Below are positions 20,801-58,409 of a stretch of DNA of 64,000 nucleotides, in pieces. Made by a program: the position numbers and the translations under genes. Numbering within the stretch: position 1 is the first letter of the stretch; each line of letters starts with the position of its first letter. Below the pieces are notes generated by a model. It did no database searches, was not told the DNA's origin, and saw only the letters and a list, made by a program, of their open reading frames with translations. Source of the stretch: Bacteroidetes bacterium GWF2_29_10 (GTDB taxonomy: Bacteria > Bacteroidota > Bacteroidia > Bacteroidales > GWE2-29-8); the NCBI GenBank assembly GCA_001768555.1, contig MEOD01000079.1, forward strand, positions 1 to 64,000, written 5' to 3'.

Positions 20801-21180
20801 CCATAACCATTTTTTTTCCAATAAGATTCTATAGACCCCATTGTCGCAAAAGTCCAACAAGCACCACAAGAGCCTTGATTTTTAGGAGGTGTAACCAAAT
20901 CGTAGTCCCTTAAATCATAACTTTCAGGAAAACCTAATGTTTTAGGGGCATATTTTGCTCCATTTTTTATTATATAACTAAAATTAGGTTTTTCTGCAGA
21001 AGGTATTTCTCCTAATCCAAATCCATCCTTTGTTACGTTTGATGTTTGTATATATTCCACAAAATATTTATTTAAAGGGGCTTCTTGAGGTAAAATATTT
21101 TGAGAATAAAGCGTATTACTTATAATAAATAAGTAAGCAAATATGCTCAAGATTAACTTTGTAAACAATTTCTTTTTCAT
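17896..21180 (-). CDS. Modular papain-family (C1A) protease secreted by T9SS
   Basis: The 1094-residue protein runs: signal peptide (1-26), C1A peptidase (about 85-295), a lectin-like domain of the type that follows such peptidases (about 305-455), an Ig/PKD-like domain (465-530), and a SprB-repeat-like domain (540-607). Four fibronectin-III-like domains follow (about 608-698, 705-797, 803-892, 896-992), then the T9SS type-A sorting domain (1013-1094, starting VYPNPFN). The catalytic residues are all present: Cys108 in GSCGACW, His243 in TNHAVLLVGW and Asn267 in KNSWG. It should be an active secreted or surface-attached cysteine protease. The fn3 domains share a conserved ending (TEYEWQIR), which points to internal duplication. 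It is monocistronic. Confidence 0.9.
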   Translation of the reverse strand: MKKKLFTKLILSIFAYLFIISNTLYSQNILPQEAPLNKYFVEYIQTSNVTKDGFGLGEIPSAEKPNFSYIIKNGAKYAPKTLGFPESYDLRDYDLVTPPKNQGSCGACWTFATMGSIESYWKKNGYGTYDLSENNLKNCHGFTSAPCDGGNHFKSMAYLSRLKGPVYDSLDVYSTTVHDCNPDIEPAAFVMEARFLINTPEILKQALLDYGGLYTNMRWEDSSYNSVDKTYFYGGATSNSTNHAVLLVGWDDTKITAGGVGAWIIKNSWGTYWGESGYFYISYNDTKVNTSVAYFPTKMDYNPEIKQYFYDNFGWTGSFGYNDTIAYGLTKFTAEGNEKVDKVGTWINSAGANITIDVLDSTTGILATVSAFCDYPGYHVINLPSSVNISTGNNFYIRVKYVTPTYNYPLTTESASGCTPVIQTEKCWISYNSSSWTAIGGGTAYARNLCIRAYTSPQEILTCSVDAGADQTICAGDIKSLSATGATSYLWNTGAITAKISVNPVTTTTYYVTGTTGACTIQDTVIVTVNELPIISSFNTTGRVTCNGSFDGFGSVIMLGNNKDYMYVWSNGSTEDSIYDLSGGDYIVTAIGINGCYTKDTMSLFEPAYFPEVSNITEVNNTNKSIVLNWNRNIETTSYMARMKKTTESTWTRYFTINSSDTSILINSLEANTEYVFQIRQFKDSSTYSCMTDYIFTTQEEITNTCNIATSLIVNNVSTSTAKLNWINDINAVSYMVRWRVKAGPEAWRYYTATAGQSSIVIGDLTSDTEYEWQIRKFCVGGFYSDFTNLVGSEFTTNNVALCTQAEYLNVSNLKSTQVTFNWVPVSNDSIYMIRWRVKAGPDAWSYYNAPSGIRIATINGLTSNTEYEWQIRTICNNNSISDFTNLFKFTTSQSCADISSLSQEVGITYAILKWDTVPKADHYLLRWRIQNGAWMYININEQSSEQQIGCAVCNEADQLLPISTYEWQIRAFCNVEGTEYSNFSGIQQFYTLKPKSIQQNVTSKTSISSNFNVYPNPFNENFSIEYNIPQNGNVTIELFDLKGQKISTIANKYETEGNHTITNSLSNNDNSNIYFVRFIFNNEVVIKKIVQIK

Positions 21181-21570: not shown

Positions 21571-22659
21571 ATGAAAAAAACAATAGCAATAATTGAAGAT
21601 GACCGTATAGCAAGAGAATCTATAAAAGATATCCTTGAAATAGAAGGCTACAATGTTCTTACTGCTAAAGATGGAGTAGAGGGATATCGTATTATTAAAG
21701 AATATATTCCTGATTTAATTCTATGTGATATTTCAATGCCTAAATTAAATGGTTATCAATTGTACGAACAATTACAAACTAAAAGTTCTCTTTTTGTAAT
21801 TCCTTTTATTTTTTTAACAGCTAAAGCTAGAAAAGAAGATATAAAAACAGGATTAAGGCTTGGCGTGGATGACTATGTTACAAAACCTCTTGATTATGAC
21901 GAACTGTTGGGAACAATTTCAAGACGTTTAAACAAAAGAGCATTAATAATTAATGAAACAGAAGAAAGATTTAAAATATTTTATGAAAATACTTTAACAG
22001 GTATATTTATTCTAGAAAAAGATAAAATAGTATTTGCTAATCCTAAGTTTTACAGTATTATTGGTTATGAAGTAGATGATCTTAATAATGAAGAATTGCT
22101 AAACATTATAGATTTAAAAAATAGAACTGATTTTATTCAAAATATAAATAATTGTTATAAAGGAATTGATAAAAATTTCTTTTCCGAATTAAATATAATT
22201 TCAAAAGATAAACAGTTAAAAAGGGTTCAGATTTTTGCAGGTATTTCCACAAAAAATGGGAAAAAAGTTATAGTAGGTTTACTAATGAAAAGTCATTATG
22301 AAAGCATTAATAATAAAGAAAAAATAGTTGTTGATGACTTAAAAATAACTAATAAACAAATAAAAATAACGGAAAATATAAACAACAAACAAATTGTTTG
22401 TATTCAATTAGCAGGAGATTTATCAATAAAAAATACTCAAAATATAAAAGAAAATATAATCCCAGTATTAAATAAATATTCAATATTTGAAATTAATCTT
22501 ATTAATGTTGAAAATATAGATCTAACATTTTTGCAATTATTATATTCTATTAAGAAAAAAATTGAAAAAGATAAGAAAAAAATTATATTTAATACTGAAA
22601 TCCCTGACGATATGAAAATGTTAATAGAACTTTCTGATTTTTACGAAATATTAAAATAA
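21571..22659 (+). CDS. Response regulator REC-PAS-STAS
   Basis: The 362-residue protein has an N-terminal receiver domain (1-120: acidic pair Glu9/Asp10, phospho-acceptor Asp53, Lys106 in TKPLD). A PAS-like domain (about 130-250) follows, and a C-terminal STAS-like domain (about 275-362) begins IVCIQLAGDLSIKNTQ. STAS domains of the SpoIIAA type bind anti-sigma or kinase partners, so output is probably by protein-protein contact and not DNA binding. The first 250 residues are closely similar to the next gene's product, which shows a duplication followed by a change of C-terminal domain. It is the first gene of a chemosensory cluster. Confidence 0.78.
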   Translation: MKKTIAIIEDDRIARESIKDILEIEGYNVLTAKDGVEGYRIIKEYIPDLILCDISMPKLNGYQLYEQLQTKSSLFVIPFIFLTAKARKEDIKTGLRLGVDDYVTKPLDYDELLGTISRRLNKRALIINETEERFKIFYENTLTGIFILEKDKIVFANPKFYSIIGYEVDDLNNEELLNIIDLKNRTDFIQNINNCYKGIDKNFFSELNIISKDKQLKRVQIFAGISTKNGKKVIVGLLMKSHYESINNKEKIVVDDLKITNKQIKITENINNKQIVCIQLAGDLSIKNTQNIKENIIPVLNKYSIFEINLINVENIDLTFLQLLYSIKKKIEKDKKKIIFNTEIPDDMKMLIELSDFYEILK

Positions 22660-22669
22660 ACTTAAATGT

Positions 22670-23698
22670 ATGAAAAAAATAATGATAATAGAAGATGACA
22701 AAACTGCAAGAGAATCAATTGTTGACATCTTACAAATGGAAAATTATGAAGTGTTTTCCGCTGATAACGGAAAAACTGGGTTAGAAATTTTAAAACAAAT
22801 TAATCCAGATTTAATATTATGTGATATAGCAATGCCTAAAATGAATGGTTATGAAGTTTATAAAGAAATTCAGGAAGATGACAATCTTTCTATTATTCCT
22901 TTTATATATCTGACTGCCAGAGCAGAAAAAGAAGATATTAAATTTGGATTAAGACTAGGTGTTGACGATTACATAACTAAACCTTTAAATTTTGATGAAT
23001 TATTATCAACAATATCAAGAAGACTAAAGAAAAGAGATAGAATAGTTAAAGAAACAGAAGAAAAATACAAAACTATATTCGAGAACAGTGTAACAGGTAT
23101 TTTTATATATAGCGAACAATCTACAATAAGCTATGCAAATTTAAAATTTTTAGACATCTCTGAATATGATGATTATTCCCAAATAGATGTTATTAATCTA
23201 TTCGACAAAGAAGAACAAAAAGAAGCTTTGTCAAAGCTAAATTCATGTTTGCTTGGAACAACAAAAAATGTAATTATGAACACAAAAATAATTACCAAAA
23301 CAAAGAACGTTAAACCTGTTCAACTATATGCTAGTCATACAGTAAAAGACGGCATAGATAGTGTTGTTGCTATAATCCAAGAAAGTGATTCTACTAATAA
23401 TTTTGACATAATCAAAAATAATAATCAAATTAATAAAATAGCACTTATTGTTGCTAATAAAGATAGTGTTAGAACTATGGTTATAAAATCAATGCTCGCA
23501 AGTGAAATAATTGATATTATTGAAATGAAAGATGAATTAAACTCAATAAAAAGCCTAGAGCAAGACGAATATGATTTAATTATAAGCGATATTGATATGA
23601 TTAGCACTGATGGAACTAGTTTAGTTAAAGAAATAAGAAAAATACAAATTTATAAAAACACCCCTGTAATAACATTTTCAACTCCCTTAAATTTTTAA
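22670..23698 (+). CDS. Response regulator REC-PAS-REC with shortened second receiver
   Basis: This 342-residue paralogue of the preceding protein has REC1 at 1-120 (Asp52, TKPLN), a PAS-like domain (about 130-245) and a second receiver-like domain from about 258. REC2 keeps YDLIISDID with possible acceptor Asp307. It stops at PVITFSTPLNF, before the last strand and the conserved Lys-Pro, so phospho-switching there is doubtful. No frameshifted continuation is visible in the 10 nt before the next gene. Ten nt separate it from both neighbours. Its role is probably as an adaptor or phosphate sink in the cluster; this is inference. Confidence 0.72.
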   Translation: MKKIMIIEDDKTARESIVDILQMENYEVFSADNGKTGLEILKQINPDLILCDIAMPKMNGYEVYKEIQEDDNLSIIPFIYLTARAEKEDIKFGLRLGVDDYITKPLNFDELLSTISRRLKKRDRIVKETEEKYKTIFENSVTGIFIYSEQSTISYANLKFLDISEYDDYSQIDVINLFDKEEQKEALSKLNSCLLGTTKNVIMNTKIITKTKNVKPVQLYASHTVKDGIDSVVAIIQESDSTNNFDIIKNNNQINKIALIVANKDSVRTMVIKSMLASEIIDIIEMKDELNSIKSLEQDEYDLIISDIDMISTDGTSLVKEIRKIQIYKNTPVITFSTPLNF

Positions 23699-23708
23699 TA
23701 AAAATATA

Positions 23709-24083
23709 ATGAAAACCCGTAAAGCATTAATTGTTGATGATTTCCTTAGCATACGAACTGTAATGAAAAGTATTTTAATTAGAGATAATATAGATGTTAC
23801 AACTGCTGAAAATGGAAAAGCAGCATTAGCTTTTACTGAAAATGAAACTTTTGATATTATTATTTCTGATTTAGATATGCCTATAATGGATGGACTAACT
23901 TTTTTCAAAGAACTAAGAAAAGATACAAAACATTTAAGCACTCCTTTAATAATACTAACAACTAATGCTGCTAATCAGGAAAGACATAAAAAAGATATTG
24001 AGCAAATTAATCTTTTTGCATGGATAATTAAACCTTTTGATTTTTTGGATTTTAGAAATATTGTAAATAAAGCTCTTAAATAA
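23709..24083 (+). CDS. CheY-like single-domain response regulator
   Basis: This is a 124-residue stand-alone receiver. The acidic pair is Asp10/Asp11, the phospho-acceptor is Asp54 in IISDLDMP, Thr lies in LTTNAA and Lys in IIKPFD. It has no output domain, like CheY. It is the likely phosphoryl acceptor of the CheA encoded directly downstream; stop and start overlap by one base (TAATG). Whether it targets a motor is unclear, since Bacteroidota typically glide and do not swim. Confidence 0.82.
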   Translation: MKTRKALIVDDFLSIRTVMKSILIRDNIDVTTAENGKAALAFTENETFDIIISDLDMPIMDGLTFFKELRKDTKHLSTPLIILTTNAANQERHKKDIEQINLFAWIIKPFDFLDFRNIVNKALK

Positions 24084-26260
24084 TGGATCAATTTCAAAAA
24101 ATATTTATAGACGAGGCTAGTGATTTAATTCAAAGTCTTGAATCATTAACTATAGAGATAGAAAAAGAGCCTGAAAACAAAGATATTATAGCTCAGGTAT
24201 TTCGTGTTATGCACTCTTTAAAAGGAGCAGCAGGAATGTTTAGTTTTCAAGTAATTAGTGATTATACTCATAATCTTGAAACTATTTATGACCAAGTTAG
24301 AAATAACATTATTAAAATAGATAAAGATCTTATAAATATTACTTACAAAAGTGTTGACCATTTGAGAAATTTATTATCAGATCCAAAATTGTCAGATAAA
24401 AATATCAAATACACCCATGAAAACTTGTTATCAGAAATTAATGATTTTATTAATTCGACAAATATTGATTATGATCAAATAGAAAATAATATCAAAAATG
24501 ATAACAAACTTGAAAATTTTAATAACACTTATTACATTTATTTCAAACCTAATGAAAACATATTTATTAATGGAACAAACCCTCTATTTATACTATCAGA
24601 TTTAAACGAACTTGGAAAATGCAAAGCATTCAAAAAAATTAACAATATTCCTCCACTTGAAGAACTTGAAGTTAAAAAATCATATTTTTCATGGGAAATA
24701 ATACTTACCACAAATCTCAATATAAATGAAATCAGAGAGGTATTTATTTTTATTGAGGATAATTGCGATCTAAATATAATTAAAATAGCAGATTGTAATC
24801 TTGTAGATGCCCCATTTTTAAATGAATTTCTAGAACACGCTCGATTATCAGATGTTACTATGGATATTGAATGGCTAAAAAATAGAGCTTTAGATTGTTG
24901 CTTAAATTATAATAACTCCAAAAATGAAGAATTTAAAAGTGGTGGAACTCAAATAGAATCAAATGATCAAAATATATTTACTATAAATGACAAAAATACA
25001 GACGAAAAATCACTTAAAGAAAAAATACGTTCTAATATAGATAACTCGGAAAACTATATCAAACAAACAACAAAATCTAATATAAAAGTATCTTCCGAAA
25101 AAATTGATGAACTAATGAATTTAGTCAGCGAACTGGTTACAACTCAGGCTGAACTTGGAGTACTTGCAAATCAAAGTGGAATAACAAGACTTACAACCGT
25201 TGCAGAAAATATTGAAAAAATATCAAGGCGTTTAAGAGATAATGCTCTAAATATATGTTTAATCCCTTTAGAAGAGGTAATCGTTCAGTTTAAACGCTTA
25301 GTTCGAAATCTTTCTATAGAGTTGAACAAAGAAATTATCTTTGTAACAGAAGGAACTGAAACCGAACTTGATAAAAGAATTATAGATAATATTCGTGAAC
25401 CTTTTGTTCATATTCTAAGAAATGCTATTGATCATGGAATAGAAGATACCCAAACAAGAATAAAATCAGGAAAACCAAAAGAAGGAAAAATAACACTAAA
25501 AGCATACTATTCTGGAGCTGAAGTTCATATTCAAATAATTGATAATGGAAAAGGTATAAATCCAGATGTTATCAGAAAAAAAGCCATAGATAAAGGAATT
25601 ATAAATAATTCAACAATACTTACAAAAAAAGAAATTTTAGAATTAGTTTTCCATCCAGGATTTTCTACTGCCGAAAAAATCACAGATGTTTCTGGACGTG
25701 GTGTTGGAATGGATGTGGTAAAAAGAAAAATTGAAGAAATAAAAGGAATCGTTGAAATTGATTCTGAAATTGGAATAGGAACTACAATTACAATAAAATT
25801 ACCATTAAGTCTATCTATAATAGACGCATTGTTAGTTAAGATAGGCTGTACTCATTTTTTAATACCTCTACAATATGTTATTAAATGCGATGAAGCTACT
25901 AATAAAGATATAGAAAATTCAATAAACAATAGATTGATTATTGATGATGAACCTATATCCTTTATTAATCTTAGACATGAATTCCAAATAAAAGAAAATC
26001 GCCCACAGATAGAACGTTTGATTATTGTCAAATATGAAGATGTTAAGTTAGCTTTGGTGGTTGATTCTATTGTTGGGGAACATCAGGCTGTTCTTAAGCC
26101 TCTTGGAGAAATTAAAGCGCATCAAGATATAATCTCTGGAGCAAGCATACTCGGAGATGGAAGTGTGGCTCTAGTTATTGACACTAGTAAATTGATAAAA
26201 TTCTATTATTTTAAAAAGAAAAAAGAAGTAATTAATATTAAATCAAATAACAATTATTAA
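24083..26260 (+). CDS. cheA: Chemotaxis histidine kinase CheA
   Basis: The 725-residue kinase has all five CheA domains. P1 (1-105) has phospho-accepting His44 in MHSLKGAAG. A P2-like regulator-binding domain (about 145-250) has PPLEELEVKKSYFSWEI, and P3 dimerisation (about 335-400) has ELMNLVSELVTTQAEL. The P4 ATPase has N box REPFVHILRNAIDHG, G1 IDNGKGI and G2 SGRGVGMDVV. P5 (about 560-715) docks CheW and receptor. Activity is controlled by the receptor encoded two genes downstream. Translational coupling to the CheY gene (1-nt overlap) and 3 nt to cheW show one operon. Confidence 0.95.
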   Translation: MDQFQKIFIDEASDLIQSLESLTIEIEKEPENKDIIAQVFRVMHSLKGAAGMFSFQVISDYTHNLETIYDQVRNNIIKIDKDLINITYKSVDHLRNLLSDPKLSDKNIKYTHENLLSEINDFINSTNIDYDQIENNIKNDNKLENFNNTYYIYFKPNENIFINGTNPLFILSDLNELGKCKAFKKINNIPPLEELEVKKSYFSWEIILTTNLNINEIREVFIFIEDNCDLNIIKIADCNLVDAPFLNEFLEHARLSDVTMDIEWLKNRALDCCLNYNNSKNEEFKSGGTQIESNDQNIFTINDKNTDEKSLKEKIRSNIDNSENYIKQTTKSNIKVSSEKIDELMNLVSELVTTQAELGVLANQSGITRLTTVAENIEKISRRLRDNALNICLIPLEEVIVQFKRLVRNLSIELNKEIIFVTEGTETELDKRIIDNIREPFVHILRNAIDHGIEDTQTRIKSGKPKEGKITLKAYYSGAEVHIQIIDNGKGINPDVIRKKAIDKGIINNSTILTKKEILELVFHPGFSTAEKITDVSGRGVGMDVVKRKIEEIKGIVEIDSEIGIGTTITIKLPLSLSIIDALLVKIGCTHFLIPLQYVIKCDEATNKDIENSINNRLIIDDEPISFINLRHEFQIKENRPQIERLIIVKYEDVKLALVVDSIVGEHQAVLKPLGEIKAHQDIISGASILGDGSVALVIDTSKLIKFYYFKKKKEVINIKSNNNY

Positions 26261-26263
26261 ATT

Positions 26264-26788
26264 ATGGATAACAAAGAAACAGAATACACTAAAGATTCGT
26301 ATTTAGCTTTTCGATTAGGTGGAGAGATCTTTGCCGTTAGTGTTCATAAAGTATTAGAAATACTAGAGTTACAAGTTATTACAAAAGTGCCACATACTCC
26401 TCAATATATGAGAGGAGTAATTAATATGAGAGGGGAGGTTATTCCTGTGGTTGATACAAGAATAAAATTCAATATGTCTGTAAGTGATGATACGGTAAGA
26501 ACTGTTATTATTGTTTTAGACTTATTCATTAAAAATAAAAAAGTAATCATTGGTGCTGTCGCTGATTCTGTTAAGGAAGTATTAGAAATAACAGAAGCTC
26601 AAATTAAAGATGCCCCTGAGATAGGTAGTAATTATAACACCGAATTTATTAAAGGCATGATTAAATCATCTGATGATAAATTTATTATGTTGTTAGATAT
26701 TGATGCCGTATTTGCATCAGAAGATATTGAACTAATAAGAGACATTAGCGATATAAATATAGTAAACACTCAAGTAAATAATTTATAA
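26264..26788 (+). CDS. cheW: Chemotaxis coupling protein CheW
   Basis: This 174-residue single CheW domain has [18 protein letters not shown] at the N-terminus, the typical [23 protein letters not shown] motif split over residues about 45-67 and a C-terminal [19 protein letters not shown]. It links CheA P5 to the receptor tip in a chemosensory array. It sits between cheA and the receptor gene in the same operon. Confidence 0.94.
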
Positions 26789-26799
26789 ATATAAATAAT

Positions 26800-26805
26800 A
26801 AGGAG
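26800..26805 (+). promoter_or_regulatory. Canonical Shine-Dalgarno site of the receptor gene
   Basis: AAGGAG lies 9 nt before the ATG at 26815. Most genes in this window have no such site, as is usual in Bacteroidota, so this one stands out. Confidence 0.6.
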
Positions 26806-26814
26806 AAAAGAATT

Positions 26815-29800
26815 ATGATTAACAACTTATCAATAAAGCTAAAACTTATAATAAGTTTTATAATAATGGCAATTTTAGCTGCTATAATTGGTTATATGGC
26901 CATTAATAGAATTAACATCATAAACAATGCTGATGCAGAATTATATGAGGTTGTTACCTCACCTCTTGGTAACTTAGTTTTTTTAGAAAGTAGTTTGCAG
27001 AAAGCAAGAATAGCAACGCGAGATATGATAATTGAAAATGAACCTAAAGAAATTGAGGAACATATATCTCAAGTGGAAGGTTATTTAAATAAAATGGATG
27101 AAGAAGCTGCTATATATAAAAAAAGCATACGAACAGAAGAAGGAAGAGCAATATTTAAAGCTTACCAAGACGCTAAATTAATCTATCAAAATGATTTAAA
27201 ACAATTATGCAAATTAGCATTATTAAATGACGATGTCGTTACTAATAATGAAATGGAGCATGGAGGTATTGCTAAAACAGTTATTGATGTTGACAAAGCT
27301 GTCAAGATGTTAGTTGATTTTAAGATAAATGAAGGAAGTATCATTAAGGCTGACAATTCATTAATTACAAATAATGCTATAAATTATATGATAATATTAA
27401 TTGTAATCTGTGTAATTTTAGCTATAACTTTAGGATTATTAATTGCTGCTAATATTTCTAAAATAGTCAAAACAATTATTAGTGAAGTAAATTCATTAGT
27501 TAATGCTGCCACAAAAGGTCAATTAGACAAAAGAGGAGCTCCAGAAAAAATTAATTTTGAGTTTAGAGAAATTGTTGTTGGCTTTAACAAAACCCTTGAT
27601 GCCGTTATTCATCCCCTAAATGTAGCAGCTGAATATATTGATAGAATAGGAAAAGGAGACGTGCCTGCAAAAATTACAGACAACTATAACGGTGATTTTA
27701 ATGAAATAAAAAATAGTTTGAATTCCTGCATTGATTCTATAAATCTATTAATAAGTGATATTAACGAAATCTCAGATGATATATCTATTGGTAAAATTAA
27801 CTCAAGAACTGATGTGAAAAATCACAATGGAGATTATGCAAAAATAATGCAAGGTGTTAATACTACTCTGGACACACTTGTATGGTTTATGGACAACATG
27901 CCAACACCTGCTATGATTATAGATAATGAATTTAATATTCATTTTATGAACAAAGCTGGAGCAGGTTTAGATAATAAAACAGGAAAAGAACTTACAGGAA
28001 AAAAATGTTATGATCATTTCAAAACAGGCGATTGCAAAACAGATAAATGTGCCTGTTATCGTTCAATTCAAAGCGGGTCAAGTGCAAGCAGTGAAACTTT
28101 AGCAAAACCAGGAAGTCACAGTTTAGATATTGCTTATAATGCAATCCCAATAAAAAATAAGGATGGGGTTGTTGTTGGAGCCTTTGAGGTTGTAATGGAT
28201 CAGACAGAAGTAAAAACTGCAATGCGTCGAGCTGAAAAAGTCAATAAATATCAAGGAAATGAAGTTAACAAACTAATAGATGGGCTAACAAAAATGTCTG
28301 AAGGTAATTTTGATTTTTCTATAGAAGTTGCCAATCCTGATGAAGAAACTCAAAAAGCATATGAAAACTTTGATGCAATTAACAATTCTGTTAAACAATC
28401 AATAAAAGCTATTTCTAATTTTGTAAATGACATGAACTATATGTCAAAAGAACATGATTTGGGCGATATTGATGTAGCAATAGATATAAATAAATTTAGA
28501 GGAGCTTATCAAAATATGGCAGATGGAGTAAATAAAATGGTTGCTGGTCATATCTCTGTTATAAAAAAAGCTATGGCTTGCGTTGCTGAATTTGGCAAAG
28601 GTAACTTTAATGCAGAACTAGAAAAATTTCCAGGAAAAAAAGCATTTATAAATGAAACTATAGAAGAAGTAAGACGCAACCTTTTAATATTTAACGTAGA
28701 ATTAGGAAATCTTATTGATGCAGCTAAAGCTGGAGAATTATCAAAAAAAGCAAATGCGGATGCATTTGTTGGAGACTGGAAAAAATTAACAAATGGAGTT
28801 AATGAAATAATCGAAAACATAATAAATCCATTAAATATTGCATCTGTCATGTTAGAGAAAATGTCAAAAGGCGATTTGACTGAAAAAATAACATCTGATT
28901 TTAAGGGCGATTTTAATAAAATAAAAGAAAGTTTAAACTCATTAAATGATGCATTATCAAGAATAATTGGAGAAATTAAAAGTGGTGCAGAAAGTGTCGC
29001 TTCTGCTAGTCAGGAAATGAGTTCTACAGCTCAAGAAATGTCACAAGGAGCATCAGAACAAGCTTCGTCTGCAGAAGAAGTGTCTTCTAGCATGGAACAA
29101 ATGGCTGCTAATATACAACAGAACACTGATAATGCACAACAAACAGAAAAAATAGCTCTTAAAGCAACTGCAGACATTGTTGAAGGAAGCAAATCAGTTG
29201 AAATTACGGTTAGTTCTATGAAAGAAATAGCTGATAAAATCTCTATTATTGGAGAAATAGCAAGAAAAACAGACCTGTTAGCAATAAATGCAGCCGTTGA
29301 AGCGGCTAGAGCTGGGGAACATGGTAAAGGATTTGCTGTGGTTGCTGCCGAAGTAAGAAAACTCGCAGAAAGAAGTCAAATTGCTGCTGATGAAATAAAT
29401 GAAGTGTCGAAAAATAGCGTAAATATTGCAGAACGTTCTGGAAAACTATTAGCTGAAATAGTTCCAGATATACAAAAAACAGCCAAACTTGTTCAAGAAA
29501 TTTCTGCAGCAAGTATAGAGCAAAATTCAGGAGCTAATCAAGTAAATTCTGCAATAACTCAATTAAATCAAGTAACACAACAAAATGCAGCTTCTTCTGA
29601 AGAAATGGCAACAAGTTCTGAAGAATTATCAAGCCAAGCTCAACAATTATTAGATACTGTTTCGTTCTTTAAAATAAATGATATTTTCTCAACTAACCAG
29701 AAAGTTAAAAAAGATATAAATATTACACATCAAAAGAAAGCGACTGTTTATAAATCAGAAAGAAATATACCAAAACAAAATGGTGTAAAAATAAATATGG

Positions 29801-29841
29801 GAAATATGCCAAGTATAGATGATGAGTATGAAAAGTTTTAG
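26815..29841 (+). CDS. Methyl-accepting chemotaxis protein with PAS and multiple HAMP domains
   Basis: The 1008-residue receptor has TM1 (about 10-30), an extracytoplasmic four-helix-type sensor (about 31-188) and TM2 (about 189-211). A run of HAMP-like units (for example [40 protein letters not shown]) is interrupted by a PAS domain (about 350-465) with a Cys-rich segment [20 protein letters not shown]. The MCP signalling hairpin follows, with tip [16 protein letters not shown] near residue 824. The protein ends in a flexible tail with EYEKF, matching the CheR-docking pentapeptide pattern x-aromatic-x-x-aromatic. The ligand is unknown. It is the last gene before a strong terminator. Confidence 0.93.
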
Positions 29842-29870
29842 TTTTTAGTGATTATAGTTAAGTATGACGA

Positions 29871-29908
29871 CCTGACAGAAAATAAATAGAAATCTGTCAG
29901 GTTTTTTT
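29871..29908 (+). terminator. Rho-independent terminator after the receptor gene
   Basis: CCTGACAGA (29871-29879) pairs perfectly with TCTGTCAGG (29893-29901), followed by seven T. The hybrid kinase gene starts only 24 nt later, so it needs read-through or a promoter inside or before the hairpin. Confidence 0.85.
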
Positions 29909-29932
29909 AGAAATGATAAATTTTAAATAATA

Positions 29933-31858
29933 ATGTTAGAAAATAAAACGAAAATATTAATAATAGAAGATGATCTAAACATCCTTGAAACAACTGCAGA
30001 GTATCTCTCATTAGAAAATTACAATGTTATTAAAGCAACAGATGGAGATGAAGGTATAAAAATGGCTATAAAACATTTTCCTGATCTTATTCTTTGTGAT
30101 ATTAATATGCCTAAAGTTAATGGATACGACGTTTTTCTAACTTTGCAAAACAATTACTTTACTAGCCTTATTCCTTTCATCTTCCTAACAGCAAAATCAG
30201 AAAAAGAAGATATTTTTAAAGGAATGCAACTTGGAGCAAATGACTATATTGTTAAGCCATTTAATTATGATATTTTGCTTAACACCATAAAAATACGTTT
30301 GCAAAAATATGGCAATTTAATAAATACAAATGAAGAAAAGTTTTCAGCTATTATAAAAAATTCTGCTGATTGGATCTGGATTTCTGATATGTATGGAAAC
30401 ATTACTTTTTCTAATGATGTATGCGAAGAAATTACTGGCTTTAATAAAAATAACATTCTTGGGAATACTATATTAGACTATATCCCTATATATGAATTTG
30501 CAGATATTAGTAGTAATCATAATACTAAATTCAATAAAGAAAAACTTAAAAATAATTTTGAACATGTAGTTAAAAGAGCTGATGGAACAAATGTAAATGT
30601 CGACGTTAGCACATCAATTATTCTTAATAATGAGAATAAAGTGGCAGGAATTGTGGGTACTCATAGAAATATAACAGCGAAAAAACAAATAGAGACTCTT
30701 GAAAAAAATATAGAAATAGCAAAAACAGCGTCTCTCTTAAAACAACAATTTCTTGCAAATATGAGCCATGAAATGCGCACACCTTTAAATTGTATTATTG
30801 GCATGCTTGATTTTATGTTAAAAACCGAACTTAATGATAAACAGTTAAATTATGCAGAAACTATAAAAAGTTTCTCAGAAACTCTTTTAAAGATTATTAA
30901 TGATATTCTTGATCTTTCAAAAATAGAATCAGGAAAATTTGATCTAGAAAATGTTAATTTTAAGGTTGAAGATATCTTTGAAAACTCAAAATCGGTATTT
31001 AATTCTTTAGTAAAAGGGAAAAATATAGAATTTGTTGAGGTCACTGATGAAGCTATTCCTGAGCATATATTTGCAGATAAAATGCGCATAAATCAAATAA
31101 TCACAAACTACATATCAAATGCAATAAAATTTACCGAAACAGGAACAATTACTATAAAATATACATTATTAAACAAATTAACTACTGACAATAAACTAGA
31201 AATAAAAGTTGAAGTAATAGATACCGGGAAAGGGATTAGTAACGAAAATATAGAAAAACTTTTTAATACTTATTCTCAATTAAATAATTCAAGAATAAAA
31301 AATGTTGAAGGAACTGGATTAGGATTATCTATCTGTAAAAAATTAGCTGAACTTATGAATGGCGAAGTTGGCGTTTATAGTGAAATTAATAAAGGTAGTA
31401 ATTTTTGGTTTACTTTTGAAGCAGAAAAAGTAGCTAAGTTTGAAGAAGTAATATCTAAAATTGACAATAATGATTTTGAAGGAATTAAATTAAATCTTAA
31501 TATCCTATTAGTAGAAGATAAATATATTAATCAAGCAATGACAAAACTTCTTCTTAAAGATGCTAATTGCCAAATTGATATTGCTGAAAATGGCCAAATA
31601 GCATTAGAAATGTACAAGCAAGATAAATATGATATTATTCTTATGGATATTCAAATGCCTATAATGGATGGTATTACAACAACTTCTATTTTAAGACAAA
31701 GATATAAAAAACTACCTCCAATTATTGCCGTAACAGCAGATGTAATTGATTTAGGTTCTAAAGAACTTACTAATAAAGGGTTTGATGATTTATTACCCAA
31801 ACCAATTACAATTGAGTCTATTTATACTAAATTACTAAAGTGGAAAGAATTTTTATAA
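29933..31858 (+). CDS. Hybrid histidine kinase REC-PAS-HisKA-HATPase-REC
   Basis: The 641-residue soluble protein has an N-terminal receiver (Asp56; VKPFN) related to the receivers of the first two cluster genes and a PAS domain (about 135-255). The dimerisation and phosphotransfer helix has His279 in NMSHEMRTPLN. The HATPase has GLGLSICKKLAELMNGEVGV, and a C-terminal receiver (about 500-641) has Asp572 in MDIQMPIMDG. No membrane helix is present. A receiver at the N-terminus suggests it is controlled by another kinase, perhaps CheA of the same cluster. It overlaps nothing and is convergent with the TPR gene 12 nt away. Confidence 0.9.
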   Translation: MLENKTKILIIEDDLNILETTAEYLSLENYNVIKATDGDEGIKMAIKHFPDLILCDINMPKVNGYDVFLTLQNNYFTSLIPFIFLTAKSEKEDIFKGMQLGANDYIVKPFNYDILLNTIKIRLQKYGNLINTNEEKFSAIIKNSADWIWISDMYGNITFSNDVCEEITGFNKNNILGNTILDYIPIYEFADISSNHNTKFNKEKLKNNFEHVVKRADGTNVNVDVSTSIILNNENKVAGIVGTHRNITAKKQIETLEKNIEIAKTASLLKQQFLANMSHEMRTPLNCIIGMLDFMLKTELNDKQLNYAETIKSFSETLLKIINDILDLSKIESGKFDLENVNFKVEDIFENSKSVFNSLVKGKNIEFVEVTDEAIPEHIFADKMRINQIITNYISNAIKFTETGTITIKYTLLNKLTTDNKLEIKVEVIDTGKGISNENIEKLFNTYSQLNNSRIKNVEGTGLGLSICKKLAELMNGEVGVYSEINKGSNFWFTFEAEKVAKFEEVISKIDNNDFEGIKLNLNILLVEDKYINQAMTKLLLKDANCQIDIAENGQIALEMYKQDKYDIILMDIQMPIMDGITTTSILRQRYKKLPPIIAVTADVIDLGSKELTNKGFDDLLPKPITIESIYTKLLKWKEFL

Positions 31859-31870
31859 ATTTGCATTTTA

Positions 31871-32485
31871 TTATTTAATACTTTTTAATCCTTCGTTTGC
31901 AGATGCATCATCAGGTTGAATAATTAACACTTTGTTAAACAACACGGCAGCTTCTTTTGTTTTCCCTAACTTAAAAGATGTCCAAGCAAGCATTAGCGTC
32001 GCATCATAGTCAAAAGGATAAAGATTTGCAACTTTTTCAAAATGTTTTAATGCATTTTGATAATCTTTATTACCATAATAAATATTTCCTAATCTATAAT
32101 TAGCGGTAGTATTATTAGGGTCAATCTTTAAAATATCATTATATTGTTTTTTTACAATTTCCCAATTACCAAGTGCTGATGCTGGCAATACTAATCCTAA
32201 TTTTGCTTCTATTGAATATGCTTTAAGCATTATTGATTTATTATAATAAGACGAAGATTCTGTAAAAAGTCCTGACATATAATAAAGCCAACCTAGTCTA
32301 AGGTTAATTTCATAAGATTTTTCATCATAATTTTTTTTGATTGCTTCTATAGCATTATTATATTCGCCTTTTTTCTCAAAAGCATAGCTGTTTTTAAAAG
32401 AGTTTGACAAGTTTTGAGCAAAAACATTGCTTGTTAATGCAATAGCAACGAAAAAAATAATTAGTCTTCTTAGTTTAGTTTCCAT
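31871..32485 (-). CDS. Secreted tetratricopeptide-repeat protein
   Basis: The 204-residue product has a signal peptide (cleavage after about residue 23, FAQ) and then about five TPR units over residues 30-200. Examples are YAFEKKGEYNNAIEAIKKNY, GNIYYGNKDYQNALKHFEKV and AWTSFKLGKTKEAAVLFNKV. TPRs bind partner proteins. It is the last gene of a six-gene operon and its start overlaps the previous gene by 16 nt, so it is probably made together with that outer-membrane protein and may form a complex with it in the periplasm. Confidence 0.75.
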   Translation of the reverse strand: METKLRRLIIFFVAIALTSNVFAQNLSNSFKNSYAFEKKGEYNNAIEAIKKNYDEKSYEINLRLGWLYYMSGLFTESSSYYNKSIMLKAYSIEAKLGLVLPASALGNWEIVKKQYNDILKIDPNNTTANYRLGNIYYGNKDYQNALKHFEKVANLYPFDYDATLMLAWTSFKLGKTKEAAVLFNKVLIIQPDDASANEGLKSIK

Positions 32486-33813
32486 TTTATACCTCCAAAT
32501 ATTAAGTAATCATTAAATAAAATATTGTTCTTTATTGTAAAATTTATGTTTTCAGGAACATTATTGTACATGAAAACATCTTTGTTAATTTGTTGAATCG
32601 TTAAAGATAGTTCAATTTTTCGAGAAGGATAGTAATATAATCCAAAATTTATTATTTGCTTTATTTCTTCATTTATATTGTTTATATTATAATAAAGATT
32701 TCCATTGTTTAAATTAAAAAAGCTATGATTTCCTTTTGATATATTTGCCTCACAATATAATTTTGTAAATAATTTTGTAACAATACCTATTTTATAAAGT
32801 CCTTTTGTTTCAAATTGGTTATTTAAAACCTGATATGTCCCAAAAATATTAGTATTTAAATTATTAAAAGGATATACATTTAAACTAAAACCTATCTGAT
32901 TATTTCTAAAAGAACTTGATTTGGCAAAAGAATAATTTATTTCTGGTTTGAATATGTTAATCTGTTTGTATATTTTAAACGCAAATAAATAATCATTGAA
33001 AGAACTTGATTGCGTTCTAAATGTATTTAAATCTAAAAAACTACTCTCCTTATTTGTTCTAAAAAAATGAAAAGAAGGTTCAATAACAATTTTTTTTAAA
33101 TTAAATGAACTTATAATTTGATAATCAATTATTTTAGTTTTTAAATTATCTATTATTGTATCAAATCCCCCTAAATGATAGTATTTGTTATTTTGTATCT
33201 GCATGTATGATAAAGAATGACTAATAATCATTTTTTTTATCCTATGACTAAATGTAGGATTAATAAAAGTTTTATTTGTAGAGTATTCCGATTCTAAGTA
33301 TGGAATGGCCTTATTAGAAGAAATAATATAGTTGTTGATTTTTGACATAGGCGAATTATTATCAATACCAATATATAATCCCGCTTCATTGTAATTATAG
33401 TTATTATTAAATTTAAGTGATTCGGTATTTCTACTTGTGTTTATCATGCTGTAATGCAGATATGATTTGTTTAAAGCTTCGTCTTTGTTGAATTTATACG
33501 CTTTAATAAAATTATTGCTTGCAGTAAAATACTTTTCTGTATTATAAAATGCTATGCCTCTTCTCATCCTTAGATAAAACCAATCATGTCCATTTTTTAT
33601 AGATTCCTTTGTAACTATTTTTAGAGAATCATATTTTCCTTCGGTTAATAGCCGTAAGCTAACGTTATCGTAGTATTTAAAGTCTTTTAAATACGTCGTA
33701 TATTCAGTGTTTAATGATAACTTTAATGTATTCAACGGCTCAAATATATCTTGAGGGAAAATTTTAATGGTAATAAAAAATAATATAAAGAAAAAAGCTG
33801 TTAATATTTTCAT
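32470..33813 (-). CDS. Outer-membrane beta-barrel protein with helical N-terminal domain
   Basis: The 447-residue protein has a signal peptide (cleavage near FPQ, residue 20). A short TPR-like helical region (about 50-125, WFYLRMRRGIAFYNTEKYFT) comes next, then a strand-rich region (about 145-447). That region has many alternating aromatic/polar strands and ends with YLIFGGIKWKLN, the sort of C-terminal strand seen in outer-membrane barrels. The helical-plus-barrel layout resembles YaiO-like proteins, but I cannot assign it with certainty. It follows the urea-transporter/M23 fusion gene by one base and overlaps the TPR gene by 16 nt. It may be the outer-membrane export or docking component of the operon. 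Confidence 0.62.
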   Translation of the reverse strand: MKILTAFFFILFFITIKIFPQDIFEPLNTLKLSLNTEYTTYLKDFKYYDNVSLRLLTEGKYDSLKIVTKESIKNGHDWFYLRMRRGIAFYNTEKYFTASNNFIKAYKFNKDEALNKSYLHYSMINTSRNTESLKFNNNYNYNEAGLYIGIDNNSPMSKINNYIISSNKAIPYLESEYSTNKTFINPTFSHRIKKMIISHSLSYMQIQNNKYYHLGGFDTIIDNLKTKIIDYQIISSFNLKKIVIEPSFHFFRTNKESSFLDLNTFRTQSSSFNDYLFAFKIYKQINIFKPEINYSFAKSSSFRNNQIGFSLNVYPFNNLNTNIFGTYQVLNNQFETKGLYKIGIVTKLFTKLYCEANISKGNHSFFNLNNGNLYYNINNINEEIKQIINFGLYYYPSRKIELSLTIQQINKDVFMYNNVPENINFTIKNNILFNDYLIFGGIKWKLN

Positions 33814-33814
33814 T

Positions 33815-35989
33815 TTATTTGTTGTCTATAATAAAGGAATAAAGAGTTTTATTCAAAATGTATGAATAATTTATTTTGTTATCTATAATCCCAATTTTGA
33901 AATTTATTTTCTTTAATGTGTTCCCTAATATTTTTACCGTAATTGATGACTCCATATTAATTTTCGAATTATTAAGATATTTCTCGCATTGATTGTATTT
34001 ACATTGATATTTACTTTTAGTGAAAATATAGAAAGGGGCAAAAATATCTTGGAGCATTAGCATTATTTTATTATTAAATAATGTTAATGGCAAACTATCA
34101 TCATATTCAATGTCTTGATAAAATGATTTTAATATTTTATAATTAGCAAGGAAAAAATAAAACAAATGTGATTTTTTATTTCCATAAAAAGAAGTGAACA
34201 TGAAAATGTTATCTGTATTTATGAAATAGGCAGAAGAGTTTGTTTCTCTGCAATAAATGTATGTGTTGTTATATGCATCAGTTAATATTTCCCACTCAAG
34301 GTTAACTTTATTTGTTGATAATACTATCAATTTTTGTCCAGGAGTAAAGTTGTAAGCTTTAATCATGGAACTGTCAGAAACAATATTCATTACCGTTTCA
34401 TTCTCTTTTGGTATATCAAATAATTTTAGTGTATATTTATTATCTGTTTTGACTATGTAATTTGCAATAGGGTAATAAATAGTTTCTGAACCTATGTGTG
34501 GATATTTTTGTAATTGAAAATGTAAATGTGGATATGGAGAACGACCTGAATTGCCAACATAACCAATAATATTGCCTTTTTTTACAATGTCGCCTACTTT
34601 TACCTTTATTTTATCTGTTCTTAAATGATTTAATGATGCATATAGACTTTCCGAATATTTAATAATAACTGCATTTCCCCAATTTTCCTCAATATTAACA
34701 TCGCCTATATTATTATCTTTAACACTATCTATAATCTCAATAACAAGACCATCTATGGGAGCTAGTACTGGTTTGTTATAACAATAATAATCATCAAGAA
34801 CAAGCCCCTCTCCTTTAAATTGATTATCTGTATTATCTACAATGTTAAAGTCTAAAGCGTATTGCCAATCTCCTTTATGTGTATGATTGCCATTATTGCC
34901 TTGCGATATTTTCCACTCCCCAAAAAATGGGAAATCTATTGGTGCATAAAAAAAGTTATTAAAACGTTTACTATTATTCACATAATTATACAAATTTTGT
35001 TCTGGAGAATAAAGCTGAATATGTGGTATTTTTATAAATTTATTCGAATGACCAGATCTTAATACAAATAAAAATAATAATACCGCCATATTAAATGGCA
35101 TTGAATAAATTGGTAATCCAAAGATTGACAATAAAGAGCTAAATCCAGAGAGTATTATGGATGTTATTGGAATAAAAAGAATTATAGTGAAAAAGGAACT
35201 TATATTTGGTATAGTAAAAAAGGAGCCTATCGCTATTGATGTAAGGATAAAATTAAAGCCTATATATAGATAATTTAAATGTGTAATATCTGCTCCTATA
35301 AACTTATAATAATTATAGGTGAAGAAAAAACCTACAATTGACAATAGAAAAGCTATTCTGGAATGAATTAACAAACCTATTGCTATTATCACTCCTGCAA
35401 TAATATTATATTGAAAAAGAATTGCCCCTAGTGATTTGAAATAGGTAATAATAGGAATTGGTATTGCTAAATTGTTTATTTGTTCATATAGTGATACTGC
35501 CTGAATGCCTCCTATTCCATATAAATCATTTAATACGTAAATTCCCCTATCACTAATTTCTAAACTCTTAAATTCATGTCCCGATAAAACAACAAGCCAT
35601 ATGCTTATCATAAAGGGAAAACTTAAATAAGGAAGTAAATATTTCTCTAAAATATTTTCAATAGTAATAGTGAAAAACAAAGTTAGTATAGACGCAAAAA
35701 TCAGAAAAAATACAAACTGAACATTAAAATTATACGAAACTCCTAAAGCCAAACCTATAAATACATTATTAAAACTATAATAACCATTTTGTATATTTGA
35801 CCTGTTAAATCCTAAAAGCAAAGACAAAGATACTGACGTAAATATGGCTATAACTCCAGCCAAACCTGAATAAACATCAAAAAATGAAACTATCAACAAT
35901 AATAACCCAAATATTTTATTCTTAGAAAAAAATATTTGGGAATAACTATTTAAAAAACTATTTAAAATGAAAGATAGTTGATGTCTCAT
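33815..35989 (-). CDS. Urea-transporter domain fused to an M23 metallopeptidase
   Basis: The 724-residue protein has an N-terminal urea-transporter (UT) domain of about ten helices (about 20-312). Its two internal repeats show as NNVFIGLALG (74-83) and LYIGFNFILTSIAIG (241-255). A peptidase M23/LytM domain (about 345-515) follows, with zinc ligands His371 and Asp380 in HKGDWQYALDF, His455 and the HLH pair 488/490, plus the KPVLAPIDG and GYVGNSG strands. The last 200 residues are unassigned and include CKYNQCEKYL. M23 enzymes cut peptidoglycan cross-links. The fusion couples a small-solute channel with a wall-active domain in one chain. Its gene is nine nt after the PLP-enzyme gene in the operon. 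Confidence 0.85.
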   Translation of the reverse strand: MRHQLSFILNSFLNSYSQIFFSKNKIFGLLLLIVSFFDVYSGLAGVIAIFTSVSLSLLLGFNRSNIQNGYYSFNNVFIGLALGVSYNFNVQFVFFLIFASILTLFFTITIENILEKYLLPYLSFPFMISIWLVVLSGHEFKSLEISDRGIYVLNDLYGIGGIQAVSLYEQINNLAIPIPIITYFKSLGAILFQYNIIAGVIIAIGLLIHSRIAFLLSIVGFFFTYNYYKFIGADITHLNYLYIGFNFILTSIAIGSFFTIPNISSFFTIILFIPITSIILSGFSSLLSIFGLPIYSMPFNMAVLLFLFVLRSGHSNKFIKIPHIQLYSPEQNLYNYVNNSKRFNNFFYAPIDFPFFGEWKISQGNNGNHTHKGDWQYALDFNIVDNTDNQFKGEGLVLDDYYCYNKPVLAPIDGLVIEIIDSVKDNNIGDVNIEENWGNAVIIKYSESLYASLNHLRTDKIKVKVGDIVKKGNIIGYVGNSGRSPYPHLHFQLQKYPHIGSETIYYPIANYIVKTDNKYTLKLFDIPKENETVMNIVSDSSMIKAYNFTPGQKLIVLSTNKVNLEWEILTDAYNNTYIYCRETNSSAYFINTDNIFMFTSFYGNKKSHLFYFFLANYKILKSFYQDIEYDDSLPLTLFNNKIMLMLQDIFAPFYIFTKSKYQCKYNQCEKYLNNSKINMESSITVKILGNTLKKINFKIGIIDNKINYSYILNKTLYSFIIDNK

Positions 35990-35998
35990 TTCTTTGTA

Positions 35999-37357
35999 TT
36001 ACAACTCAAATTTGTTTAAATGTTCTGGTGTTTGTTCTGAACGTTCAAATGTTTCTGATGTTTCCCGCTTTCTTACTATATGAACATTGTTTTGTAAATC
36101 AATCATAACTATATTTGGACGTAAATTAATAAATTGCATCCATTGAGTCATATTATAGGCACCTATATTGCTAATAACTAAATTATCTCCTTTGTTTAAT
36201 AATGGTAAATTAATACTTTCCCTTATTACATCTATATTCATACATAAAGGACCATACAAAACGGTGTCTTCTGTAAAATGTGAAAATGGTTGTGCTGGGG
36301 TAATTTTATGATCATACCAAAAGGATGTAAACAAAATATTGACGCCAACATCAATTATTGTTGCTCGCTTCCCACTCGTAAGTCTCTTATTTGCTATTAC
36401 CGAACCTATCAAAAAGGATGTGTCGTCTATTAACGCTCGGCCTGATTCTAATATTAATGTTGGAAGATTTTCTGGTTTTATATTCGAATTTATTAATGTA
36501 GAAGTTATTGCATCTGCATAATCATTAATTGTAGGATTTGTATCAACCCCTTGCAAAAAGGAACCTTTTAATGTGTTCTTCGATGTAAAACCTCCTCCTA
36601 AATCAATATATGATATAGTATGACCATATTTTGACTGAAGATTAAGGCTAAGGTCTATAAGTTTTGATGTTGCTACAGAATAAGCCATAGGGGATAAAAT
36701 AAATGTGCCTATATGACAATGTAAACCCATTAGTTCTAAATAATCATTTAGCATAATCTTATTTAAAGCATCCCAAGCCTGACCATTCTCATAATTAAAT
36801 CCAAACCTATCCCACATAGGATAAATACCACAATCCAAATTAATTCTAATAGCCACTTTAGCCTTCTTGTTGCAACCTTTTGCAATTGACATTAAACTAT
36901 ATAATTCATCAAGATGGTCTATATGAATTAATGAATCATTATTTATAGCTTTAAGTAACTCTTCATCTGTTTTATGTGGCCCATTAAATATAATATATTT
37001 TCCAGGAACTCCATTTTTTAATGCCTTATCATATTCAAATCCAGAAACAACTTCTGCCCAAGAACCTTCTTGATGAAAAACTTTACACACACTATCCAAA
37101 TAATTTGTTTTATATGACCAGGCAAATTGAACTTTTGGATAACGATCCGTAAAAGCTCGCTTTGCTTCATTTATGTTTTTCCTAATTAACCTCTCTGAAA
37201 TAACAAAAAGAGGAGAACCATATTCTTTAACAAGATCTTTTACTTTATTATTTTCTATTTCAGTCATTGGTAAATATTCTGTTCTTAAACCAAATTTATT
37301 TGGCATGCCTGTCTCTACTTTTTTTATTACAGGTCTCTCATAACTTAATTTTGTCAT
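35999..37357 (-). CDS. PLP-dependent fold-III decarboxylase (diaminopimelate/ornithine decarboxylase-like)
   Basis: The 452-residue enzyme has the alanine-racemase-type TIM barrel and C-terminal beta domain of group IV decarboxylases. Lys83 in AWSYKTNYL binds PLP. The blocks HCHIGTF, YIDLGGGFTSK, LILESGRALID and GPLCMNIDVI follow, with the substrate-side Cys at the last, and then NIGAY. The DapDC/LysA substrate signature is not matched exactly, so the amino acid is uncertain (DAP, ornithine, arginine or a peptide-bound residue). It lies 21 nt after an ATP-grasp gene and 9 nt before the urea-transporter fusion, a context unlike lysine biosynthesis. It is therefore probably a specialised enzyme. 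Confidence 0.82.
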   Translation of the reverse strand: MTKLSYERPVIKKVETGMPNKFGLRTEYLPMTEIENNKVKDLVKEYGSPLFVISERLIRKNINEAKRAFTDRYPKVQFAWSYKTNYLDSVCKVFHQEGSWAEVVSGFEYDKALKNGVPGKYIIFNGPHKTDEELLKAINNDSLIHIDHLDELYSLMSIAKGCNKKAKVAIRINLDCGIYPMWDRFGFNYENGQAWDALNKIMLNDYLELMGLHCHIGTFILSPMAYSVATSKLIDLSLNLQSKYGHTISYIDLGGGFTSKNTLKGSFLQGVDTNPTINDYADAITSTLINSNIKPENLPTLILESGRALIDDTSFLIGSVIANKRLTSGKRATIIDVGVNILFTSFWYDHKITPAQPFSHFTEDTVLYGPLCMNIDVIRESINLPLLNKGDNLVISNIGAYNMTQWMQFINLRPNIVMIDLQNNVHIVRKRETSETFERSEQTPEHLNKFEL

Positions 37358-37378: not shown

Positions 37379-38431
37379 TTATAATTCGCCTAATGTTGAA
37401 ATTTGTTCCAGTTCCTCAATATCTACAATCATATCATAAGAATATCTTACAAACATCTTCCCCGTTTTATAGTGTAATGATGGTGATACCTTTTCTCCAA
37501 TGCACAACTTTAATAGCATTTCCGGAATATTGTTCCCAACTCCAAAGCTTAAATATATCCAAGCTGGGATGCGAGGATTGATTTCCAATAAATAGTAATC
37601 ATTAGTATCTTTCTTTTTTATAATTTCCAATTCAAAAGCACCTCGCCATTTAGTTTTATTTATAAAGTTTTGCGTTATATTTTTTAGATTATCATCTTCT
37701 ATAGAAACACCTGCCCATGCTTTACCTTTATCCGTAATATATTGTTTTCGCATAGATACATAAGAAATAAGTTCCCCATTGCCATCTCCAAGTCCTGTTA
37801 CGTTTAACTCTTGACCATCTATAAATTCTTGAATTATTATTGGTAAGCCCCATTTATTTGCTATTTTATTAAAGTGTTGTTGTGCTTGTTCTATATTGGA
37901 AGCTATGCTTGCATCATAGTATTTACCTTTAACTGCTATAGGAAAATTAATATTTGATGGAAGTTTATAAAATTCATTAGGAGAATTTATTGTATGTGAA
38001 GCAGGAACCTTTATTCCATATTTATCTCCAAAACTATTTAAATTAACTTTATGCCTTTCCTCAAACTGTTCTATAGTTGGTAAAAAAGTTTTTATGCCTA
38101 TTTCTTCTAATCTATCCTTTAGTTTTATAAAAGAATATAATTCTGCATCAAAATTTGGAATGATAACATCTATTTTTTCTATACTATTTACATGCTTAAT
38201 CCTTTCAAAAAGAACTTCCATGCCTGCTGAGGGATAAGGAATTTGATATGTTTTGTCTATTAAATCATGCATGAAAATACCTGGCTCTAGCGACTCATAA
38301 GCAAGACCTATAATTTTTGAATTAAAAATTTCAGATTCTTTTATACATCGTATTACGGGAATACCTGGACCTGGATTATCTATAGCGTTTAGACCCGTAA
38401 CAGCTACTGTGATTGACTTCCTTTTATTCAT
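37379..38431 (-). CDS. ATP-grasp ligase (carbamoyl-phosphate-synthase-like)
   Basis: The 350-residue protein has a pre-ATP-grasp Rossmann part (1-115, VAVTGLNAIDNPGPGIPVIR) and an ATP-grasp fold (about 120-320). The segments FPIAVKGKYYDASIA, IIQEFIDGQELNVTGLGD and YYLLEINPRIPAWIYLSFG supply the ATP/Mg2+-binding residues, including Glu and Asn of the EINPR motif. ATP-grasp enzymes make acyl-phosphates and join a carboxylate to an amine or thiol. The substrate is unknown. It is 3 nt after the PqqD-like gene, a pairing common in peptide-modification clusters. It is not a carbamoyl-phosphate synthase, as that is three times longer. Confidence 0.82.
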   Translation of the reverse strand: MNKRKSITVAVTGLNAIDNPGPGIPVIRCIKESEIFNSKIIGLAYESLEPGIFMHDLIDKTYQIPYPSAGMEVLFERIKHVNSIEKIDVIIPNFDAELYSFIKLKDRLEEIGIKTFLPTIEQFEERHKVNLNSFGDKYGIKVPASHTINSPNEFYKLPSNINFPIAVKGKYYDASIASNIEQAQQHFNKIANKWGLPIIIQEFIDGQELNVTGLGDGNGELISYVSMRKQYITDKGKAWAGVSIEDDNLKNITQNFINKTKWRGAFELEIIKKKDTNDYYLLEINPRIPAWIYLSFGVGNNIPEMLLKLCIGEKVSPSLHYKTGKMFVRYSYDMIVDIEELEQISTLGEL

Positions 38432-38434
38432 AGC

Positions 38435-38683
38435 TTATTTATCTAGTTCTATTACTAAATAGGCCTTAAGTAAAGATACAAAATCATAGTAATCTTTTTC
38501 AAAAGCTGTAGATTCTACTTCATATTTGTCCATTATATGATCTTTTATTGATTCGTAAGCCATTTCGGCTTTTAGCATATTGATTATCTCTACTCCCATT
38601 TGGTTTGTTGTAAATGACTCGCCCGAAACTGGATTAAATATAAATCCCGTATTACTTATTGCTATACTATTTTTTATTTTCAT
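38435..38683 (-). CDS. PqqD-like peptide-chaperone / RRE-fold protein
   Basis: The 82-residue protein matches the PqqD fold pattern. N-terminal strands form a hairpin (SIAISNTGFIFNPVSGESFT), then TNQMGVEIINMLKAEMAYES at the typical T/N-x-x-G-x-x-I-x-x-L position, then two helices ending LLKAYLVIELDK. PqqD and RiPP recognition elements hold a precursor peptide for a modifying enzyme. It is the first gene of the operon. I looked for a precursor peptide upstream on the same strand and found no open frame longer than a few codons, so the peptide is elsewhere or the role differs. Confidence 0.75.
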   Translation of the reverse strand: MKIKNSIAISNTGFIFNPVSGESFTTNQMGVEIINMLKAEMAYESIKDHIMDKYEVESTAFEKDYYDFVSLLKAYLVIELDK

Positions 38684-55236: not shown

Positions 55237-55245
55237 AAGTAATTA

Positions 55246-55863: not shown

Positions 55864-55873
55864 ACTCTATATA

Positions 55874-56494: not shown

Positions 56495-56506
56495 AATTAT
56501 AATTAT

Positions 56507-57214: not shown

Positions 57215-57230
57215 AATTATTTGTATTTTT

Positions 57231-58397: not shown

Positions 58398-58409
58398 CTT
58401 TCAGTGATT

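Follow-up and report, generated by a model that had tools for sequence, protein, structure and literature searches.

A urea-transporter domain joined to an M23 peptidase, and its conserved six-gene operon, in Bacteroidota

Why would a urea-transporter (UT) domain and an M23 peptidase share one polypeptide? The question is raised by a gene on the minus strand, at 33815-35989, of the window analysed here, a stretch of 64,000 nucleotides from contig MEOD01000079.1 of Bacteroidetes bacterium GWF2_29_10. An earlier note on this DNA had read the product as a membrane channel carrying a wall-cutting enzyme, and doubted that urea is the substrate. We found no paper on such a fusion or its operon in the open-access literature that we searched, although the domain architecture itself is presumably listed in domain databases.

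One reading frame for channel, peptidase and tail

The gene is a single unbroken frame of 724 codons, and the claim that both domains lie in one chain is confirmed: the UT and M23 parts are joined in a real fusion. Both score above their Pfam cut-offs. The UT profile PF03253 matches residues 10-309 (35063-35962, minus strand) over positions 2-290 of 292 with E 2.9e-54 and 187.5 bits against a cut-off of 25, and is thus a full-length domain, with 10 transmembrane (TM) helices and two pore half-helices. Peptidase_M23 (PF01551) matches residues 405-495 (E 4.7e-15, 56 bits against a cut-off of 28.7) within a domain of about residues 351-499 (34493-34939, minus strand), which this match, the invariant residues and the fold support. 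An AF2 model computed with 32 relatives has a mean pLDDT of 88.9 and a pTM of 0.81 and shows both folds; Foldseek places the UT part with the Desulfovibrio vulgaris urea transporter dvUT (3k3g, E 2.9e-15, TM 0.83 on the target) and the peptidase part, which has a LytM-like fold, with M23 enzymes including EnpA (6smk, TM 0.77), ShyA, DipM and lysostaphin.

An artefact joining two genes at about residue 320, by frameshift or by assembly, was looked for and not found, and we give it a negligible probability. One genome (G005) does encode UT and M23 in two adjacent ORFs, which a frameshift in a T run has separated. In our sample of 396 genomes from across the Bacteroidota, however, 33 have a UT frame that runs on through M23, in proteins of 535-770 aa, and so do 79 of the 80 further loci; the frame recurs at 690-770 aa in dozens of independent genomes. 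These further loci are the best 80 of at least 540 relatives found by tblastn in GTDB genomes; they are mainly from Bacteroidota, with some from metagenome-assembled genomes of Chlorobiota, Ignavibacteria, Balneolota and Neomarinimicrobiota. An unrooted tree computed from 60 UT sequences separates the fused UTs from dvUT and the free UTs by a branch supported at 100/100, and by this measure the fused ones form one separate clade.

All four residues that the earlier note had named as metal ligands are present, and His371 (codon 34877-34879, minus strand), Asp380 (34850-34852), His455 (34625-34627), His488 (34526-34528) and His490 (34520-34522) each occur in 111 of 111 fusions. By analogy with LytM and lysostaphin, however, we take His371, Asp380 and His490 to be the zinc ligands and His455 and His488 to be the catalytic histidines, so that His455 is probably not a ligand. 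The protein shares its fold and invariant His/Asp set with the M23 metallopeptidases (lysostaphin, EnpA and ShyA, and LytM domains) but differs in having no signal peptide, in its H-x8-D spacing and in being fused to a channel. The peptidase is followed by a beta-rich tail domain without a known family (residues 508-724; 33818-34468, minus strand). Modelled alone, its roughly 215 residues give a pLDDT of 90.5; no Pfam family was found consistently among 65 members, and Foldseek gave no significant match, the weak LolA/YmcC-like matches all having E above 0.1.

The six-gene operon and its decarboxylase

The main clue to the function of the fusion is the conserved operon of six genes in which it lies. 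From upstream to downstream on the minus strand these encode a PqqD-like protein of 82 aa with a RiPP-recognition-element (RRE) fold (38435-38683; PF05402, E 1.4e-6), a 350-aa ATP-grasp ligase resembling carbamoyl-phosphate synthase, of the PRK12767 kind (37379-38431), a fold-type III PLP decarboxylase of 452 aa (35999-37357), the fusion, a 447-aa protein with a signal peptide, a TPR-like N-terminus and an outer-membrane beta-barrel predicted from its sequence (32470-33813), and a periplasmic TPR protein of 204 aa, also with a signal peptide (31871-32485). Almost all fusions in the sampled loci have this set around them, as do most of those in the 80 further loci where contigs are long enough, and the median spacings of -8, 21, 15, -10 and -13 bp include overlaps. 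Of the 396 genomes, 34 encode UT-M23, whether fused or split, and the ATP-grasp family occurs in these 34 and in no others; in a plasmid search, the matches listed for it were just distant relatives with 20-26% identity.

Homologues of the TPR/beta-barrel protein sit downstream of the fusion in most loci, with a recognizable TPR in 7 of 17 and one DUF2490 match; loci of the flavobacterial type encode a shorter barrel, of about 275 aa, after the TPR gene. The PqqD-like protein most resembles the recognition elements of lasso-peptide systems, the closest solved one being TbiB1 (E 3e-13). A RiPP precursor next to PqqD was considered and set aside, as no conserved ORF for a small peptide was found in the 700 bp upstream, though one may lie farther away, and a LysW-like carrier ending in a conserved acidic residue was rejected because the C-termini of the PqqD proteins vary. 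No Rfam element or riboswitch was found upstream of the operon.

Several loci depart from this arrangement. An extra gene of 259-315 aa adjoins the decarboxylase gene, before or after it, in L083, L075, L077, L106, L134 and L139, the copies in L083 and L075 looking alike. One genome appears to have a copy of the operon at each end of a single contig (L032; G124:C1:401-4959 and 3731818-3736375), with equal ATP-grasp scores, which may mean that the contig is circular with overlapping ends or that the operon is duplicated. In G005 the split UT and M23 genes are followed by repeats with gtcatgctgagc (L063:8200-8860), and barrel and TPR genes were not recognized there. Elsewhere in the window, a dense chemotaxis and two-component block lies beside the operon on the opposite strand (21571-31858), with a CheA-like protein (24083-26260), a CheW-like protein (26264-26788), a methyl-accepting protein of 1008 aa (26815-29841), a hybrid kinase (29933-31858) and response regulators. 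At 17896-21180 a gene encodes a papain-like (C1) peptidase of 1094 aa that has fibronectin-type repeats, ends in a sorting-like domain and is probably a type IX secretion substrate, and an apparent NqrA-F gene set for a sodium-translocating NADH:quinone reductase occupies 53971-59756 on the minus strand.

The decarboxylase profile scores best against N-citrylornithine decarboxylase (7kh2, 301 bits), followed by LysA (234), D-ornithine/D-lysine decarboxylase (160) and BtrK (145). Catalytic Lys83, Cys372 and His213 are invariant, and the CES motif of LysA is replaced by CMNID (C-M-x-x-D). The protein falls below the NCBIfam equivalog cut-off for LysA (224 bits against 297.9) and thus outside that family as judged by profile; it also falls below that for FslC (252 against 500), which is its nearest relative and no more. 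We rejected the idea that it is the organisms' LysA, on its sub-threshold score and because 10 of 12 operon genomes tested have a separate LysA above the cut-off. In the window's own genome, which is 92% complete, no LysA exceeds the cut-off and the operon decarboxylase is the best, sub-threshold match; a LysA role there is unlikely, although for want of a second LysA above the cut-off it is not fully closed. FigC, SbnH, AcsE, MccE and BtrK decarboxylate conjugated amino acids and do not act in polyamine synthesis (PMC7857480). Among these enzymes the operon decarboxylase is closest to FigC/FslC by profile score and keeps the catalytic Lys, Cys and His, but Ile375 aligns with the citryl-contacting His357 of FigC, an ATP-grasp ligase takes the place of the partner NIS synthetase of FigC/FslC systems, and, unlike in those systems, no siderophore genes were seen near the operon.

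The pore and its candidate cargo

With the urea transporters of the UT family (dvUT, Yut and SLC14) the fusion shares the fold, the 10 TM helices, the two pore half-helices and the slot phenylalanines. The latter (F27, F80, F190 and F243 in dvUT; F21, F73, F192 and F245 here) are kept in 96-110 of 110 distinct fusions, and both Asn residues of the pore helices are nearly invariant. The polar pore set of dvUT is incomplete, however. The acid of Glu187 is absent from all 110, with Ala in 91 of them, including Ala189 of the window protein (35423-35425, minus strand); Thr130 is replaced by Ser in 103, and Thr294 by Ser, Val or Ala in 107, both being Ser in the window protein, whereas Gln24 is kept in 96 and replaced in 14. 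All eight distinct free UTs keep Gln24, Glu or Gln at 187, Thr130 and Thr294. The fusion does not reach the NCBIfam equivalog cut-off for urea_trans_yut (138.7 bits against 274.6).

The fusion also differs from these transporters in having no link to urease. A urease alpha gene occurs in only one of 34 operon genomes, as compared with six of ten genomes with a full free UT, and the window's own genome, 92% complete, yielded none; a role in supplying urea to urease was rejected on the count for the operon genomes. Together with the loss of Glu187 these figures make urea an unlikely cargo, which strengthens the doubt voiced in the earlier note, and the fused clade has probably changed its cargo, if pore residues and gene content are a guide. 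Intact UT and M23 sites would fit a channel for urea or a similar amide with a periplasmic wall-cutting peptidase, linking nitrogen supply to wall remodelling. That interpretation nevertheless seems very improbable to us: urease is nearly absent, the pore is altered, the canonical UT topology would put M23 in the cytosol, and the biosynthetic genes of the operon are left unexplained.

A different explanation for the altered polar residues, and for the replacement of Gln24 in some fusions, is that the UT part no longer transports and serves as a membrane scaffold, or as a small-molecule sensor that gates the peptidase. We consider this improbable; the near-invariance of the four slot phenylalanines and of both pore-helix Asn residues suggests that the pore of the fusions may still work.

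Membrane orientation and a proposed role

UT proteins have 10 TM helices (PMC10541013), and the loop that connects their two halves is periplasmic (PMC2868824), so that both termini, and with them a C-terminal M23 domain, are expected in the cytosol unless the topology is inverted. The active site is complete, but the wall-cutting role given to M23 in the earlier note is therefore not supported as stated there and is possible only with an inverted UT; charge bias does not decide the matter. In free UTs the Lys and Arg residues inside exceed those outside by 4-8, whereas in fused UTs the difference averages 0.1 with the tails and -5.6 for the loops alone. These loops carry 7.7 Lys and Arg residues on the canonical outside against 2.1 on the inside, a shift absent from free UTs, and taken without tails they favor the inverted side in 99% of fusions. 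The split gene in G005 is uninformative in this respect, being a frameshift with no signal peptide at the break.

If the UT is inverted, both termini would lie outside and M23, in the periplasm next to the TPR and barrel proteins, would cut peptidoglycan or a peptide of that compartment, the UT acting mainly as an anchor or passing a cytosolic product. This arrangement would agree with the loop charges, with the signal peptides of the other two envelope proteins of the operon, with the exported LolA/YmcC-like folds among the weak, non-significant similarities of the tail, and with the nearest free M23 relatives, most of which, judged by eye, have export or lipoprotein signals. It is at odds with the description of UTs as N-in/C-in, with a charge sum near zero once the tails are counted, and with the AF2 model, which has no additional TM helix between UT and M23. 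Cysteine content also speaks against it. Cys makes up 1.07% of the M23 domain and tail, as against 0.19% of the operon's two exported proteins (TPR and barrel), and the two most conserved, Cys403 and Cys478, do not covary; this fits a reducing compartment, although the lack of covariation removes a disulfide as a test of the side on which M23 lies. We regard an inverted UT as possible, if on balance unlikely; the evidence is split and we lean slightly towards M23 on the cytosolic side.

The reading that we prefer, tentatively and at somewhat less than an even chance, is that the operon is a conserved envelope-spanning cassette for biosynthesis and release, with M23 in the cytosol and a small amide or amine as the product; instead of importing urea, it seems to make and release a small amide-type molecule. 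The cytosolic steps would begin with the ATP-grasp enzyme, which, with the PqqD-like protein as a scaffold, would join an amino acid to another group through an amide bond; the decarboxylase, acting like FigC on a conjugated amino acid, would then remove CO2. UT-M23 would be the inner-membrane module: the product would leave through a UT pore that has kept its slot phenylalanines and altered its urea-type polar set, and the fused peptidase would cut a peptide bond in a precursor or carrier and so couple release to passage. The periplasmic TPR and TPR/beta-barrel proteins may then carry or deliver the product outward.

This biosynthesis-and-release reading draws on the retention of overlapping genes in nearly all sampled loci, on the strict co-occurrence of the ATP-grasp enzyme, and on a decarboxylase with a C-M-x-x-D motif that scores nearer to 7kh2 than to LysA in genomes that mostly have a true LysA besides; the altered pore, scarce urease, separate UT clade and cysteine pattern are also consistent with it. 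Against it, a cytosolic M23 would be unusual given its mostly exported or lipoprotein kin, the fused UTs have no clear positive-inside pattern and their loops lean the other way, no precursor peptide was seen in the 700 bp upstream, and the variable PqqD C-termini lend a carrier role no support. A UT pore, moreover, would not let through molecules much larger than urea.

Known systems resemble parts of the operon. Butirosin synthesis has a similar trio of small protein, ATP-grasp ligase (which we take to be BtrJ) and type III decarboxylase in BtrI/BtrJ/BtrK, but its small protein is an acyl carrier where the operon has a PqqD-like protein, and the operon adds a channel, a peptidase and outer-membrane parts. 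In the C39-ABC exporters of RiPPs, too, a transport protein of the membrane carries a fused peptidase and is encoded near a PqqD/RRE protein, but this is an analogy only: the operon has no ABC transporter or C39 domain, no precursor peptide was found, and peptides could not fit through a pore as small as that of a UT. The pairing of a periplasmic TPR protein with a TPR/barrel protein is presumably analogous to outer-membrane exporters of the PgaA, PelB and AlgK-AlgE kind, although the operon has no glycosyltransferase or synthase and its barrel is a prediction.

A bolder proposal, to which we give only a minority chance, is that the operon is an envelope-spanning system for biosynthesis and export, of a class not yet described, in which the urea-type channel has been repurposed as an exit for a small decarboxylated amide, coupled to the action of the fused peptidase. 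Its UT part may also lie in the membrane the opposite way round from all UTs known so far. The UT family has stood for simple urea channels; the fused clade, with a changed pore, an intact peptidase site and an obligate biosynthetic operon, extends over several FCB phyla. If its product and cargo are found, this would reveal a new use for the UT fold, provide a natural set of pore variants for studies of selectivity, and explain the function of a cassette that about 1 in 12 of the Bacteroidota genomes sampled here carry.
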